Below are positions 22,987 to 46,317 of a stretch of DNA of 46,519 nucleotides, one piece after another (the first letter of the stretch is position 1; the number at the start of each line of letters is the position of its first letter). Origin of the DNA: Eubacterium sp. Lineage in GTDB: Bacteria > Bacillota > Clostridia > Oscillospirales > Acutalibacteraceae. The notes beneath the pieces are model-generated. The model saw only the letters and a program-made list of their open reading frames with translations. It did no database searches and had not been told where the DNA came from. The position numbers were made by a program, and so were the translations under genes. Location of the stretch: positions 1 through 46,519 of the forward strand of contig JAFSZK010000090.1 in assembly GCA_017458975.1 (NCBI GenBank). Reading direction: 5' to 3'.

Positions 22987-24492
22987 TTGAAATTAACCAA
23001 AAAAGTAATTGCATTGCTGATTTCGGCAATTTTTATTATAAACGGAGGCGTAATCGGAGTATTTGCGGAGGACGACAGCACCACAGGCTCGACAACTACC
23101 ACGACTACCGAGGTGTCCACAACAAAGGAACAGTCAACAAAACCGACCACAACGAAGCCGACTACAACCAAACCGACAACCACTAAAAAGCAAACCGAAA
23201 AGGAAAAGAAGGAAGCTAAAAGAAAGCTGGAGGAACAGAGAAAGCAGCTTCAGCAAAAAAAGAAGGAGGCTGACAGAAAGCTTGCAAAATACGGCAAAAA
23301 CGCAAAAGCTACCGAGGAATATATTTTAGCTCTTGACGAAAGAATAGGATATATAAACGAGGAAATTGCGGTATTAAGAGCACAAATGGACGCGAGCCAG
23401 CAGGAGATTGACAAGCTTAATGTTGAAATGCAGCCGCTTAAGGACGAGCTTGCAAAGCTGCAGAAGGAGTATGACTCCTACAAGGCTGAATACGACAAGC
23501 TTAACGCCGATTTCCAAAAGACTTATGAAGCTTACTGCACAAGGCTTCGCGCTATGTATGTAAGCGGATATTCAAGCGTCCTTGCAGCGCTTCTTTCGTG
23601 CGACGACCTTGAGGATTTTATTAACCGTTTTGAAATGGTAAGAGCCGTTACCAAAAGGGACGGTGCCCTCCTTAAAACCGTACATAAGGAAATGAAGAAA
23701 ATTACCGAAAAGCAGGACGGATTAAATAAGAAAAAGACCGACGTTGAAAAGAAGAAAAAGGTTTACGACGACAAGGTTGCAAAGTATCAGGCGGAGCAGC
23801 AAACCGTACTTGACAAGCGCGAGGATATCGCAAAGAGCAGAATTCAGCTTGATGAGGACAGACTCAAGAGCGACGAGCTCTACGCAGAATACGCCGCAAG
23901 CCATAAGATTTATTCCGATTTTGCCGATGAGGATACCCATGCGCTTGACTCGATTAATCAGGAAATTGACGATTTGATGTCGGGAAAGAAAAGCGCAAGC
24001 GAGGTTACCACTGCCAAGAACCCGAAGCTCGGCGACAAGAGCAAGGTTAAGGTAAAGCGTATCGGTAAAAACGACGTTTATGCAAATTCGGACGCAACGG
24101 TCAGCTTCAGATGGCCCGTTCCCGGTCACACCCGCCTTTCCCAGCATTTTGGCCATATCCGTGCGGGAAGAGTTCATAAGGGAATTGATATTCCGTGTCC
24201 GACTCACTCAAAGATTGTTGCGGCTCAGAAGGGCGTTGTTATAAGAGCGAGAAGTAATGCGAGCGAGGCTTACGGATACCACGTTATGGTATACCACGGT
24301 ACCGACTCCCACGGAAGAAGAATCGTTACCTGTTACGCGCATAATTCTAAGCTTCTTGTTGAGGTCGGCGACCATGTTGCTCAGGGTCAGCAGCTTGCCT
24401 GGAGCGGCTCTACAGGACGTTCAACCGGACCGCATTGCCACTTTGAGGTAATTATTGACGGAACAAAGGTAAATCCGGAGAATTACGTATAA
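22987..24492 (+). CDS. Second M23 peptidoglycan hydrolase, paralogue
   Basis: A 501-residue secreted paralogue of the preceding M23 protein. After the signal peptide (about 1-27) comes a Thr/Pro/Lys-rich linker with repeated TKPT units (about 32-65), then a long coiled coil (about 70-330) and the M23 domain (about 375-501). His397/Asp401 (HKGID), His452 and His483/His485 are intact. Both paralogues share a coiled-coil motif (YCxRLRAxYVSG). The start is TTG 22987 with a weak AAGGGAAG site. The stop overlaps the queH start by one base. The linker suggests that this copy reaches further into the wall. Confidence 0.87.
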   Translation: MKLTKKVIALLISAIFIINGGVIGVFAEDDSTTGSTTTTTTEVSTTKEQSTKPTTTKPTTTKPTTTKKQTEKEKKEAKRKLEEQRKQLQQKKKEADRKLAKYGKNAKATEEYILALDERIGYINEEIAVLRAQMDASQQEIDKLNVEMQPLKDELAKLQKEYDSYKAEYDKLNADFQKTYEAYCTRLRAMYVSGYSSVLAALLSCDDLEDFINRFEMVRAVTKRDGALLKTVHKEMKKITEKQDGLNKKKTDVEKKKKVYDDKVAKYQAEQQTVLDKREDIAKSRIQLDEDRLKSDELYAEYAASHKIYSDFADEDTHALDSINQEIDDLMSGKKSASEVTTAKNPKLGDKSKVKVKRIGKNDVYANSDATVSFRWPVPGHTRLSQHFGHIRAGRVHKGIDIPCPTHSKIVAAQKGVVIRARSNASEAYGYHVMVYHGTDSHGRRIVTCYAHNSKLLVEVGDHVAQGQQLAWSGSTGRSTGPHCHFEVIIDGTKVNPENYV

Positions 24493-25121
24493 TGAATAAA
24501 ATTAACTACCAGAAAGAGCTTGATAAAATAATCGAAGAGATTAAAAGCGAGGGTGCGTGCCCGAAGCTTATGCTTCATTCCTGCTGCGCGCCCTGCTCAA
24601 GCTATGTTCTGGAATACCTAAACAAGTATTTTGATATAACCGTATATTATTTTAATCCTAATATTTCGCCCGAGGGTGAATTTGAAAAGAGATTTGAGGA
24701 ACAAAAGCGTCTTATTAAAGAGCTTCCGGTCAAAACCGACGTTAAGCTTATTAAGGGTGCGTACGATTACGAGGAATTTCTCGACGCCGTTAAAGGATAT
24801 GAGGAGTGTCGTGAGGGCGGCGAGCGTTGTTTTAAATGCTACCGTCTTCGTCTTGAAAAAACGGCGCGCTATGCGGCTGACGAGGGCTTTGATTATTTTT
24901 GCACCACTCTTTCAATCAGCCCCCTTAAAAACAGCGAAAAGATAAACGAAATAGGTTACTCGCTTGAAAAAGAATACGGCGTAAAATGGCTTCCCTCCGA
25001 TTTTAAAAAGAAAGAGGGCTATAAGCGCTCAATTGAGCTTTCAAGGGAATATAATCTTTACCGCCAGAATTACTGCGGCTGCGTTTATTCCAAATTTGAC
25101 AGGGAGGAGAAATATGAATAA
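24492..25121 (+). CDS. queH: Epoxyqueuosine reductase QueH
   Basis: A 209-residue enzyme of the QueH (former DUF208) family, which reduces epoxyqueuosine to queuosine in tRNA, the last step of queuosine synthesis. The cysteine-rich motifs are present: HSCCAPC (Cys31, 32, 35), GERCFKCY and the C-terminal YCGCVYS. These bind an Fe-S cluster and a second metal. The ATG overlaps the upstream stop, and the last bases overlap rarA by 8 bp. No other que gene is in the window. Confidence 0.92.
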   Translation: MNKINYQKELDKIIEEIKSEGACPKLMLHSCCAPCSSYVLEYLNKYFDITVYYFNPNISPEGEFEKRFEEQKRLIKELPVKTDVKLIKGAYDYEEFLDAVKGYEECREGGERCFKCYRLRLEKTARYAADEGFDYFCTTLSISPLKNSEKINEIGYSLEKEYGVKWLPSDFKKKEGYKRSIELSREYNLYRQNYCGCVYSKFDREEKYE

Positions 25122-40872: not shown

Positions 40873-41514
40873 ATGAATTGTCCTAATTGCGGAAGAGAAT
40901 TAATGGAAGGCGAGGTTTGCACCTGTACCGAAAACGTACAAAGCGAACCGGTTGAAACTCCGGCAGCGGAGCCTGTACAGAGCGAAACGCCCGTAACACA
41001 GGAGGCGCAGCCCCAAAGCGAAGCGGCTTCACAACCGAATTATTATCAGCCGCCCCAGCAGCCTTATTATTCACCCGAACAGGCGCAACAGAATTATTAT
41101 CAGCAGCCGCAGCAGGCTTATTATCAGCCACCGGTAGCTCCCGTAATGCCGCAGCCCGTTATTGAAATGCCTGCAAGAACCGATTATCCCGAGGGATATA
41201 AAATTAAGAGAAAGTATGTTGCGGTTATTCTTGCAGCGTGTCTCGGCTGTATCGGTATTCACCATTTCTATCTCGGCGATAAAACAAAGGGAATTATTAA
41301 AATCCTTCTTACAACACTCGGCGCGCTTATTGTCGTAGGTCCCATAGTTGCTTATGTGTGGTCAATCGTTGACGCAGTATTACTCTTAACCGAAAACGAG
41401 GATAAGGACGCAAACGGCTTCAAGATTCAGACCTTTGAGGAAGCTCTCGTAGCCGAAAGACTCAGAGCCGAAGCGCAGGCAAAGGAAGAGGAAGAGGAAG
41501 CAGAAGCAGAATAA
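40873..41514 (+). CDS. TM2-domain protein with zinc ribbon
   Basis: A 213-residue protein. An N-terminal mini zinc ribbon (CPNC at 3-6, CTC at 16-18) is followed by a Pro/Gln/Tyr-rich low-complexity stretch (about 40-100), then a TM2 domain (about 112-180) with two membrane helices, the motifs GCIGIHHFYLGD and a DAVLLL end, and an acidic tail. TM2 proteins are widespread and of unknown function. The RBS AAAGGAG precedes the ATG. Its 3' side carries a 67-bp tandem repeat and a terminator. Confidence 0.85.
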   Translation: MNCPNCGRELMEGEVCTCTENVQSEPVETPAAEPVQSETPVTQEAQPQSEAASQPNYYQPPQQPYYSPEQAQQNYYQQPQQAYYQPPVAPVMPQPVIEMPARTDYPEGYKIKRKYVAVILAACLGCIGIHHFYLGDKTKGIIKILLTTLGALIVVGPIVAYVWSIVDAVLLLTENEDKDANGFKIQTFEEALVAERLRAEAQAKEEEEEAEAE

Positions 41515-41526
41515 ATGAAGTAATGT

Positions 41527-41680
41527 TTGCCAAAGGCAATGTGCGTTAGCACACATCATTAGCGAAGTGTCATCATTGCACAGCCAATATCATTTGCCAA
41601 AGGCAATGTGCGTTAGCACACATCATTAGCGAAGCGTCATCATTGCACAGCCAACATCATTTGCCAAAGGCAAACATCAT
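41527..41680. repeat. 67-bp tandem repeat (2.3 copies)
   Basis: Unit starts are at 41527, 41594 and 41661 (last copy partial). The two full units differ at only two positions. Each unit contains the hairpins TTGCCAAAGGCAA and TGTGCGTTAGCACA and CATCATT linkers. A 21-base part (41616-41636; 41549-41569 with one change) is shared with the array at 9887-9907. No ORF is present. Confidence 0.85.
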
Positions 41681-41681
41681 T

Positions 41682-41712
41682 AAAAAAGAGCCTCCCTTGA
41701 GGCTCTTTTTTT
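41682..41712. terminator. Bidirectional terminator
   Basis: AAAAAAGAGCCTC (41682-41694) pairs with GAGGCTCTTTTTT (41699-41711). It serves both the TM2 gene and the PurF-like gene. Confidence 0.9.
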
Positions 41713-43123
41713 ATTCTCTTCCGTCCCAGCAATAGGTGCAAAGCTTATCGGGGTCGATTCCTGCGGAAGAAATCATATCGTCAAGACGGTTGTATCTGAG
41801 TGTAGTGAACTTAAGCTGCTCTCTTATTTTTTCAAGCATATTTGCATATCTTTTTGAATCCGGGTCGGCGTATTCCTTAAGAACTTCCATACTCGGGTTT
41901 TCGCCCTCAAGCTCGTTTATTACTCTTCTTGTAATAAGCTCCATTTCACTTGTTGAGCGAGAGAAGTTGAGATACTTACATCCAAACATAATCGGCGGAC
42001 ACGCGGGTCTGATGTGTACCTCTTTTGCACCGTTTGCAAAAAGGTATTCCGTGGTTTCGCGAAGCTGGGTTCCTCTTACGATTGAGTCGTCAATCATAAG
42101 AAGGCTCTTGCCGTCAATTAAGTCCTTTACGGGAAGGATTTTCATTTTTGCAATAAGATTTCTCTTGCTCTGATTAGTCGGCATAAATGAGCGCGGCCAG
42201 GTCGGAGTGTATTTTACAAAGGGTCGGGAATAGGGAACGCCCGATTCGTTAGCATAACCGATTGCGTGAGCAACGCCCGAGTCGGGAACGCCCGCAACAA
42301 TATCGGGCTTAACCTCGCCGGCGTCGCGTTTAGCGAGCGCGCTTCCGCATTTATAGCGCATTTCCTCAACGTTGATTCCCTCGTATTTTGACGACGGATA
42401 GCCGTAGTAAATCCAAAGGAAGGTACAGATTTTCATATCGTCCCCGCCCTTGACAATCGTTTTAACCCCGTCGGGCGTTAAAACAACAATCTCACCGGGT
42501 TCAAGCGAGCGGTATTCCTTATAACCCAAATTAAGATATGCAAAGCTTTCAAAGGAAGCGCAGTAGCCGTCCTTTTTTTCGCCGAGCATTATCGGAGTAC
42601 GTCCGCGCCTGTCCCTTGCCGCAAATACTCCGTCGGGAGTAAGGATAAGCATACTCATTGAGCCGTCAATGATTTCCTGGGCGTACTTAATACCGTCGAT
42701 AAAGTTATCCTTCTGGTTGATAATAGCTGCAACGAGCTCTGTCTGGTTGATGTCGCCCGTGTGCATTTCAAAAAAGTGAGCGCCTTTTTCAATAATATTT
42801 TTTATAATTTCCTCGCTGTTGTTGATTTTTCCGACAGTGGAAATAGCAAAGGTGCCGTGATGTGAACGAACAAGAATCGGCTGAGCCTCATAATCGCTTA
42901 TTGAGCCGATACCCATATTGCCGTGCATTGAGTTGGACTCGGACGCGAATTTTGTTCTGAAGGGTGAGTTTTCAATATTGTGAATTGCCTTTTCAAAACC
43001 GTTTTCCTTGCTGTAAACCGCCATACCTGCGCGCCTTGTGCCGAGGTGTGAGTGGTAGTCTACGCCGAAAAACAAATCGAAAACGCAATCCTCTTTTGAT
43101 ACTGCTGCAAAAAATCCTCCCAT
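41711..43123 (-). CDS. PurF paralogue with inactive glutaminase domain
   Basis: A 470-residue protein with the two-domain layout of amidophosphoribosyltransferase. The PRPP loop LLMIDDSIVRGT (341-352) is intact, as are four cysteines at the positions of the Bacillus PurF [4Fe-4S] ligands: Cys233, Cys382, Cys462 and Cys465. But the N-terminus reads MGGFFAAVS, so the essential first-residue Cys nucleophile is Gly; the usual HVRY Arg is replaced (GNMGIG) and the HNGN Asn is Val97. Glutamine hydrolysis should be impossible. RBS AAGGAGG before MGG confirms the start. It could use ammonia, act on another amine, or be regulatory. It stands alone, with no purine operon. Confidence 0.85.
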   Translation of the reverse strand: MGGFFAAVSKEDCVFDLFFGVDYHSHLGTRRAGMAVYSKENGFEKAIHNIENSPFRTKFASESNSMHGNMGIGSISDYEAQPILVRSHHGTFAISTVGKINNSEEIIKNIIEKGAHFFEMHTGDINQTELVAAIINQKDNFIDGIKYAQEIIDGSMSMLILTPDGVFAARDRRGRTPIMLGEKKDGYCASFESFAYLNLGYKEYRSLEPGEIVVLTPDGVKTIVKGGDDMKICTFLWIYYGYPSSKYEGINVEEMRYKCGSALAKRDAGEVKPDIVAGVPDSGVAHAIGYANESGVPYSRPFVKYTPTWPRSFMPTNQSKRNLIAKMKILPVKDLIDGKSLLMIDDSIVRGTQLRETTEYLFANGAKEVHIRPACPPIMFGCKYLNFSRSTSEMELITRRVINELEGENPSMEVLKEYADPDSKRYANMLEKIREQLKFTTLRYNRLDDMISSAGIDPDKLCTYCWDGRE

Positions 43124-43151
43124 AACTTCCTCCTTATGCTTGTTTGATTGT

Positions 43152-43180
43152 ATTATAACAGAATAATTACCCTATATAAA
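43152..43180 (-). promoter_or_regulatory. Promoter of the PurF-like gene
   Basis: On the minus strand TTTATA (43175-43180), 17-bp spacer, TATAAT (43152-43157). Confidence 0.6.
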
Positions 43181-43189
43181 TAGTTATAT

Positions 43190-43232
43190 CTTAAAAATAC
43201 AATGAAGCAGAGCAAAAAATTTTGCTCTGCTT
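43190..43232 (-). terminator. Terminator after dnaJ
   Basis: AAGCAGAGCAAA (43205-43216) pairs with TTTGCTCTGCTT (43221-43232). On the minus strand it is followed by CATTGTATTTTT. Confidence 0.75.
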
Positions 43233-43242
43233 AGGCTGTTTT

Positions 43243-44388
43243 TTATTTAAATTTATCAAAAAATCCTTTTTTGCCGGGATTTTTGGGCGCAACATAGTCC
43301 TTGTCAAACTGTTTGAGCAGGTCCTTCTGCTCGCCGGTAAGGCTTGTAGGAATATCAACGATAACCTTAACGTAGAGGTCTCCCTTTCCTACGCCGTTAA
43401 GACGCTGAATTCCCTTGCCCTTGAGCTTGAATACCTCGCCCGGCTGAGTACCTGCGGGCATGGTATACTTAACATCGCCGTCAAGAGTAGGAACGCGAAG
43501 CTCCGCACCGAGGGAAGCCTCAACGATAGAAACGTGCTTGTTGTACCAGATGTCAAATCCGTCGCGCTCAAAGTCCTTATGCTTTTTGATATTAACAATA
43601 ACCCTGAGGTCGCCCGTGGGACCGCCGTTGATTCCGGCATCACCGAAGCCGCGCACGTTAACAACCTGACGGTTATCAATACCTGCGGGGATATTAATAT
43701 CAACCTTTGTGCGCTTTCTGACCTTACCCTTGCCCTGACATTTCGGACAGGGATTGTCAACGATTTTGCCCTTGCCTGCGCAGCGCGTACAGGGTCTTTG
43801 AGTGCTGATAGTACCGAAGGCGGTTCTCTGCTGAACGTTGATAACGCCTCTGCCTCCGCAATCGGGACAGCTTTTAGGCGAAGAGCCGGGAGCCGCACCC
43901 GTGCCGTGGCACTGAGAGCAATCCTCAACCCTTGACACGTCAACAGCCTTTTTACATCCCTTGGCAGCCTCCTCAAAGGTGATTGTAACGGCGCTTTGAA
44001 TATCCCTTCCGGGACGGGGAGCGTTCGGGTTTCTTCCGCCGCCGAAGCCGCCAAAGCCGCCGCCTCCGCCGAAAATTGAGGAGAAAATGTCGCCGAGGTC
44101 AATGTCGCCGTCGAAACCGCCGAAGCCTCCGGGACCGCCTGCGCCTGCTCCGTAGTTGGGGTCAACTCCGGCAAAGCCGAATTGGTCGTAGCGAGCCTTT
44201 TTCTGAGGGTCGGACAGTATTTCATAAGCCTCGTTGCATTCCTTGAATTTTTCTTCGGCAACGGGGTCGTCGGGGTGTAAATCGGGGTGATACTGTTTAG
44301 CCGCTTTACGGTATGCTTTTTTTATTTCGTCGTCCGAAGCGCTCTTGCTTACGCCGAGCACCTCGTAGTAATCTCTTTTATCGGGCAT
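43243..44388 (-). CDS. dnaJ: Chaperone DnaJ
   Basis: A 381-residue class I (type A) Hsp40. The J domain (about 3-70) has the HPD motif (YHPDLH), a Gly/Phe-rich region follows (about 75-115), then four zinc-binding CxxCxGxG repeats (CSQCHGTG, CPDCGGRG, CTRCAGKG, CPKCQGKG) and the substrate-binding C-terminal domains. It stimulates DnaK ATPase. ATG 44388 is preceded by TTGGAGG; an in-frame reading four codons longer is less well placed. It lies 75 bp after dnaK, across a hairpin. Confidence 0.96.
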   Translation of the reverse strand: MPDKRDYYEVLGVSKSASDDEIKKAYRKAAKQYHPDLHPDDPVAEEKFKECNEAYEILSDPQKKARYDQFGFAGVDPNYGAGAGGPGGFGGFDGDIDLGDIFSSIFGGGGGFGGFGGGRNPNAPRPGRDIQSAVTITFEEAAKGCKKAVDVSRVEDCSQCHGTGAAPGSSPKSCPDCGGRGVINVQQRTAFGTISTQRPCTRCAGKGKIVDNPCPKCQGKGKVRKRTKVDINIPAGIDNRQVVNVRGFGDAGINGGPTGDLRVIVNIKKHKDFERDGFDIWYNKHVSIVEASLGAELRVPTLDGDVKYTMPAGTQPGEVFKLKGKGIQRLNGVGKGDLYVKVIVDIPTSLTGEQKDLLKQFDKDYVAPKNPGKKGFFDKFK

Positions 44389-44422
44389 AGCTGCCTCCAA
44401 GCTTAGTATTTATGTATAACCG

Positions 44423-44463: not shown

Positions 44464-46317
<1,854 letters not shown>

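Follow-up and report, generated by a model that had tools for sequence, protein, structure and literature searches.

Textbook accounts have purine synthesis begin with a committed step that consumes glutamine. According to Brown et al. (2011, PMC3261824), Escherichia coli PurF in which Cys1 is replaced by Ala or Ser loses glutamine use and still accepts ammonia as donor, and Crenarchaeota have a PurF-like cluster, PurF′, that has no N-terminal Cys, is encoded near purF and other pur genes, and was proposed as a possible ammonia-dependent aminotransferase, an idea put forward there as untested; each Crenarchaeon has one gene in the PurF cluster and one in the PurF′ cluster. Here we analyzed the gene for a PurF-like protein in a 46,519-nucleotide stretch of Eubacterium sp. 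DNA (contig JAFSZK010000090.1; the window) together with the family to which the protein belongs. Judging from sequence, the protein is likely, with a probability of roughly 0.7, to be a phosphoribosylamine synthase that uses free ammonia instead of glutamine, i.e., a glutaminase-free PurF. This reading is based on the residue pattern, a structure prediction showing the PurF fold, the split seen in a tree, co-occurrence with purM, purD and purL in genomes lacking any other detected PurF, and, in some of these, a place directly before purM.

With PurF of the Bacillus subtilis type (1ao0 and 1gph; NCBIfam TIGR01134), the family shares the overall fold, the domain order, the PDSG and DDSIVRGT loops and four cluster-type cysteines, but it lacks Cys1, the HRGQ Arg, the core of the glutamine loop and the HNGN Asn, and it has an altered flexible loop and a C-terminal insert; the window protein scores 196.3 bits against TIGR01134, short of the curated cut-off of 350. 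Like crenarchaeal PurF′ as described in PMC3261824, the family has no N-terminal Cys; pur genes lie near some of its members and not near the window's copy. Unlike PurF′, as described there, it includes genomes in which no other PurF was detected and its gene occupies the place before purM. The E. coli Cys1 variants reported in the same source are laboratory point mutants, whereas the family has lost a number of glutaminase features at once and shows this form throughout; since those mutants retain ammonia use, ammonia chemistry is within the fold's reach. In the literature searched, from which subscription papers were mostly absent, PMC3261824 alone bears on a glutaminase-less PurF, and within that scope what is new is a bacterial family, the deep loss of the glutaminase site, genomes without a detected canonical PurF, and the position directly before purM.

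Residues lost and retained

When about 5.8 billion proteins were searched, at least 7997 candidates scored E 1e-20 or better, and beyond the best 120 listed these may include canonical PurF proteins. Family membership was decided by two strings, PTW and CTYC, together with a start of the form [GSA]-G-x-F, with the remaining columns free to vary; 117 of 120 loci passed and, together with the window protein, gave 118 family sequences that were aligned with 14 canonical PurF proteins (Table 1; genomes, loci and contigs are cited below by handles in G, L and C). Because the pick was string-based, three of the traits were in part built into it: the lack of Cys1, some of the flexible loop, and the final pair of cysteines. 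The three loci outside the pick (L097, L126 and L127) likewise have Gly, not Cys, at the nucleophile position, and there is no Cys among the 16 in-frame codons that separate the upstream stop from the ATG of the window's gene. The same losses and retentions recur in 118/118 family sequences, which argues that the pattern is neither due to chance nor confined to one degenerate gene. A reading of the window made earlier from its sequence alone had pointed to Gly at residue 2, the loss of the HVRY Arg and the HNGN Asn, an intact phosphoribosyl pyrophosphate (PRPP) loop at residues 341-352 and cysteines at 233, 382, 462 and 465; all of these hold in the window protein and across the alignment.

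Among the residues lost, the HNGN Asn has an oxyanion-hole role. The glutamine loop of E. coli PurF runs from R73 to E84, and Y74 and I335 form one wall of its ammonia channel, according to PMC7953260. By that residue naming, the eight-residue deletion in the window protein (RYSTTGGK in L011) falls in the glutamine loop and removes Y74, and the column taken for I335 holds Met in 110, Thr in 7 and Ile in 1 of the 118 family sequences.

In the phosphoribosyltransferase (PRT) half the PRPP loop is intact. In the Arabidopsis enzyme, changes of the PRPP-loop Asp, Asp or Ser markedly lower activity (PMC7056826); the family retains all three, and the pyrophosphate (PPi) loop PDSG is present in 118/118 sequences. 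The flexible loop reads KYTPTW where canonical PurF has KN.Y, with TPTW in 118/118 (PTW was one of the strings of the pick). Ahead of the last two cysteines the family has a C-terminal insert. Cys233, 382, 462 and 465 align with cysteines in all 14 canonical proteins, at positions which we take to be the iron-sulfur (Fe-S) cluster ligands of B. subtilis-class PurF. The window protein matches Pfam GATase_7 at 33.9 bits, above the cut-off of 25, and the Pfam phosphoribosyltransferase domain at 21.9 bits, below the cut-off of 26.3, and its predicted structure model shows the two-domain PurF fold. A tree of PurF and MGGFF-type proteins, suggested with the earlier reading, was built from 80 members and 11 canonical sequences, and each group occupies one side of a single branch (Shimodaira-Hasegawa-like approximate likelihood ratio test, SH-aLRT, 100; quick search).

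Purine genes and gene order in carrier genomes

At E 1e-70 and counting the window's genome, the family occurs in 20 of the 299 phylum genomes and in 54 of the 194 class genomes. Among the named carriers, of which the best 80 of at least 597 were kept, are Eubacterium ruminantium ATCC 17233, Claveliimonas bilis, Acutalibacter and numerous Lachnospiraceae, and the record titles of a good part of the carriers point to gut and rumen samples; database records name the family proteins amidophosphoribosyltransferase. A link to Bacteroides was dropped, as the control Bacteroides ihuae matches at 1e-20 and not at 1e-35 or 1e-40, more weakly than members do.

The two PurF types were told apart by score in the genus, class, lax-threshold and named-genome searches. 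When 26 genomes suspected of holding the family protein as their sole PurF were retested at lax thresholds, canonical PurF was not found in 25; G453 was dropped since an insert breaks up the model's match to its canonical PurF, and G019 and G027, which hold canonical PurF fragments, were excluded from the lacking count. These 25 sole-copy carriers comprise 16 of the 54 carriers in the class survey, including the window's genome, plus nine genomes of the relatives set. Six of the 25 belong to the window's genus and are drafts, 90-95% complete. In 14 of the 25 an extra, weaker PurF-profile match fits GlmS, an assignment checked for the window's genome (G000). Purine genes were found in most of them: purM in 24, purD in 23, purL in 23, and all three in 23, the exceptions being G053, with none of them, and G434. 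The corresponding numbers over the cut-off for 14 genomes with neither PurF form were 1, 2 and 2; this set consists of G047, G054 and 12 of the 27 class-survey non-carriers in which canonical PurF is missing, the 12 being taken at survey thresholds, at which a split canonical PurF could escape as in G453. Matches below the cut-off comprise a partial purD in G380, a purL-like stretch with stops in G426, and weak purM in G200, G426 and G430.

We then considered the location of the gene. It lies directly 5′ of purM on the same strand in 8 of the 25 sole-copy carriers (G033, G048, G050, G052, G365, G403, G434 and G506), and also in G046, G051 and G469, which hold canonical PurF too; in G473 the order is family gene, canonical purF, purM. 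The pur operon of G434 runs into a run of N, and that of G365 has the order purE, the family gene, purM, purN, IMP cyclohydrolase (PF07826), a lone AICAR transformylase, purD and purL. A ZMP/ZTP riboswitch lies 5′ of purE in G365 and G403 and was not found in the other five loci searched, including those of G506 and G033. Ten of the 12 purM-side copies group together in an 11-row clade (SH-aLRT 96), from which only the G046 and G050 copies are absent. The window's copy sits in a separate 37-row clade (SH-aLRT 99), which includes sole-copy carriers having purM, purD and purL (G391, G424, G415, G480, G448, G512 and G360); in these sole-copy carriers the family gene is not beside purM. Purine neighbors are seen in this clade as well: among 74 of the 80 named loci, those in which the gene caller found the family gene, a pur gene adjoins it on the same strand within 194 bp in eight: purB in L064, L066, L067, L070, L076 and L081, and purF in L042 and L101. 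With 12 pur genes in about 2300, about 1% adjacency would be expected (p ~1e-6, the loci not all being independent).

The earlier reading had left an ammonia-dependent enzyme, a re-purposed transferase and a regulator side by side. We favor the first because the family protein is the only detected PurF in some related genomes with purM, purD and purL, and because eight sole-copy genomes place its gene directly before purM. That reading had also named what would speak against it, namely a sole copy in a purine-making organism that worked with glutamine: relatives with the pathway do have the family protein as their sole PurF-like protein, while glutamine as donor is very unlikely on sequence grounds because the glutaminase residues are missing. 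In the mechanism we propose, PRPP would bind where the PRPP and PPi loops are still intact; ammonia would reach the PRT site from solution, as the glutamine loop and the channel wall (Y74; I335 mostly Met) are gone; and the product, phosphoribosylamine, would be handed to PurD. The dead N-terminal nucleophile (Ntn) domain may be retained as a scaffold, and the protein would bind an Fe-S cluster. In genomes with both proteins, we predict isozymes, canonical PurF being glutamine-fed and the PurF-like protein ammonia-fed, as in the glutamine-fed AsnB and ammonia-fed AsnA pair. The odds lie slightly in favor of a wider proposal, that a glutaminase-dead PurF replaced the glutamine enzyme in several lineages of Clostridia and their kin, where it would be the sole phosphoribosylamine synthase of the pur operons and give a glutamine-free entry to purines. 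Should free ammonia indeed be the substrate, many Clostridia would have their purine synthesis tied to ammonia supply, the amidophosphoribosyltransferase labels in databases would name the wrong donor, and inhibitors that mimic glutamine would not act on the first purine step in carriers. The 2011 idea on crenarchaeal PurF′ (PMC3261824) becomes directly testable in bacteria with no detected canonical PurF to mask the result.

Two neighborhoods in these genomes are recorded here as observations in their own right. In L129:12933-14849 (G365), separate IMP cyclohydrolase-like (PF07826, of the archaeal kind) and lone AICAR transformylase genes replace the bifunctional PurH. The gene carB lies within about 30 bp of the family gene in three loci, upstream in G448 (L151:92-4763) and G474 (L167:2-4638) and downstream in L115, after 9404.

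Opposing evidence and alternative functions

Several observations weigh against a role of the family as the ammonia-fed first enzyme of purine synthesis. Canonical PurF is present in 150 of the 194 class genomes at E 1e-90 (151 with G453), in 38 of the 54 class carriers (37 plus G453), in all seven named genomes searched, chosen from the 80 named loci and including those of Claveliimonas bilis and Eubacterium ruminantium, and in 28 of the 36 genomes that represent the window's genus, so that the main role need not fall to the window's copy; this copy lies near dnaJ and outside any pur operon. Most absences of canonical PurF come from draft genomes, G506 alone among the sole-copy carriers being a single contig, and absence is not significantly more frequent with the family than without it (16 of 54 carriers vs. 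27 of 140 non-carriers, the 27 at survey thresholds; p 0.13). G053, which is 98% complete and encodes the family protein at C2:56252-57409, has no matches to purM, purD or purL, so that in this genome the protein may have another task or be a relic. Conversely, G047 and G054 have purD and purL (G054 also purM) and no PurF-like match above the GlmS level, indicating that assembly gaps or an unknown first enzyme occur and that absences call for caution. Finally, the altered PRT flexible loop makes another amine acceptor possible.

Three alternatives have to be considered. One is that the protein is the catalytic phosphoribosyltransferase subunit of a two-part enzyme, to which a separate glutaminase protein supplies ammonia, so that glutamine is still the cellular source. 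Split amidotransferases such as PdxS/PdxT and HisF/HisH offer a precedent for such an arrangement, and the GlmS-fitting matches in 14 sole-copy carriers, a gene just upstream in L036 that reads by eye as glmS, and the retention of the Ntn domain (at least 54% identity to the window over full-length class matches) are all compatible with it. We nevertheless regard it as improbable, since the family has lost the glutamine loop along with channel residue Y74 and no glutaminase-type neighbor recurs among the loci listed, except for L036 and the canonical purF of L042 and L101; the commonest families at the -1 position are purB (5/74) and one other (4/74), a distribution with which a partner encoded elsewhere would still agree. 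About as doubtful is a pseudoenzyme that senses PRPP or nucleotides and, without catalysis of its own, regulates or partners canonical PurF. Most carriers hold both proteins, the family gene adjoins canonical purF in G051, G473, G475, L042 and L101, and purB sits between the two in G479, L066 and L076, as might be expected of such a partner, but the 25 carriers without a detected canonical PurF would have nothing to regulate, 23 of them have purM, purD and purL, and the PRPP loop is retained in 118/118 sequences. The presence of the family protein as the only PurF-like protein beside the pathway in relatives thus argues against a pure regulator.

The remaining alternative, to which we give similarly little weight, is a PRPP-dependent transferase repurposed for another amine acceptor or another pathway. 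The TPTW flexible loop, the C-terminal insert, the occurrence of the protein in G053 without the three pathway genes, and the carB gene adjoining it in G448, G474 and L115 would be accommodated by this explanation, whereas the location 5′ of purM in genomes without another detected PurF, the purB and purF neighbors, and the ZTP riboswitch 5′ of two such operons point to purine synthesis.

The window's genome and locus

The family is paralogous to canonical PurF, as the earlier reading had it, insofar as 33 of the 36 genomes of the genus, the window's own included, hold the PurF-like protein and 26 hold both by score; the description is supported for the family and not for the window's genome, which is 90% complete and in which no canonical PurF was found. 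Two TIGR01134 matches in that genome were rejected as canonical PurF: the one on C87 is GlmS (492 bits to TIGR01135), and the one on C17 (35.5 bits) is asparagine-synthetase-like by eye. In two other genomes of the genus, canonical purF adjoins a split glutamate-synthase-like cluster outside a pur operon (L145:9863-13959 and L146:4052-10627), with GXGXG, Glu_synthase, GATase_2, ferredoxin and pyridine-nucleotide oxidoreductase genes (domains searched in L146). The GXGXG gene was not found in the window's genome either, an empty answer that alone shows nothing; with this neighbor also missing, an assembly gap and a true loss of canonical purF look the same.

The gene is on the minus strand, a detail missing from the earlier reading. 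A promoter of its own and a place outside any pur operon had also been claimed for it, and consensus scans are consistent with both, giving a promoter-like site, stems on either side and dnaJ and dnaK upstream (Table 1).

Table 1. Features of the PurF-like gene and its surroundings (window coordinates; residue counts are from the 118 family and 14 canonical sequences)
Feature	Position	Strand	Remarks
Open reading frame, glutaminase-less PurF-like protein, 470 aa	41711..43123	minus	ATG 43123-43121, stop 41711
Codon 2, Gly at nucleophile Cys1 position	43118..43120	minus	family G 109/118, S 9/118; canonical C 14/14
Codon 27, Leu replacing HRGQ Arg (HRGQ to HLGT)	43043..43045	minus	L 118/118; canonical R 14/14
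Codons 75-77 (ISD), site of 8-residue glutamine-loop deletion	42893..42901	minus	R73 and Y74 columns empty in 118/118
Codon 97, Val replacing HNGN Asn (HNGN to TVGK)	42833..42835	minus	V 107, I 9, T 2 of 118; canonical N 14/14
Cys233, first Fe-S-type cysteine	42425..42427	minus	118/118
Codons 304-313, PRT flexible loop, KYTPTWPRSF	42185..42214	minus	alignment
Codons 341-352, intact PRPP loop, LLMIDDSIVRGT	42068..42103	minus	D-D-S-x-V-R-G-T in 118/118
Cys382, second Fe-S-type cysteine	41978..41980	minus	118/118
Cys462 and Cys465 (CTYC), third and fourth Fe-S-type cysteines	41729..41740	minus	118/118; CTYC is a selection string
AAGGAGG, ribosome-binding-like	43129..43135	minus	5 bases 5′ of ATG; sequence reading
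Promoter-like TTTATA-17-TATAAT, 5′ of PurF-like gene	43152..43180	minus	consensus match only
Terminator-like stem, interval between dnaJ and PurF-like gene	43205..43232	minus	consensus match only
Terminator-like stem, 3′ of PurF-like gene	41682..41711	minus, listed on plus too	consensus match only
dnaJ	43243-44400	minus	upstream of PurF-like gene
dnaK	44464-46293	minus	upstream of PurF-like gene and dnaJ
TM2-domain gene	40873-41514		convergent, downstream of PurF-like gene

Within the window, Rfam at gathering scores gave one tRNA and nothing else, and a PADLOC scan at 0.01 gave no match. Between the TM2 gene and the terminator-like stem of the PurF-like gene, a 67-bp unit is repeated 2.2 times with 97% matches (41526-41673); the first 42 bases of the unit have no other site in the window, even when 3 mismatches are allowed. 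The window also encodes a QueH-type epoxyqueuosine reductase (PF02677) at 24492-25121.
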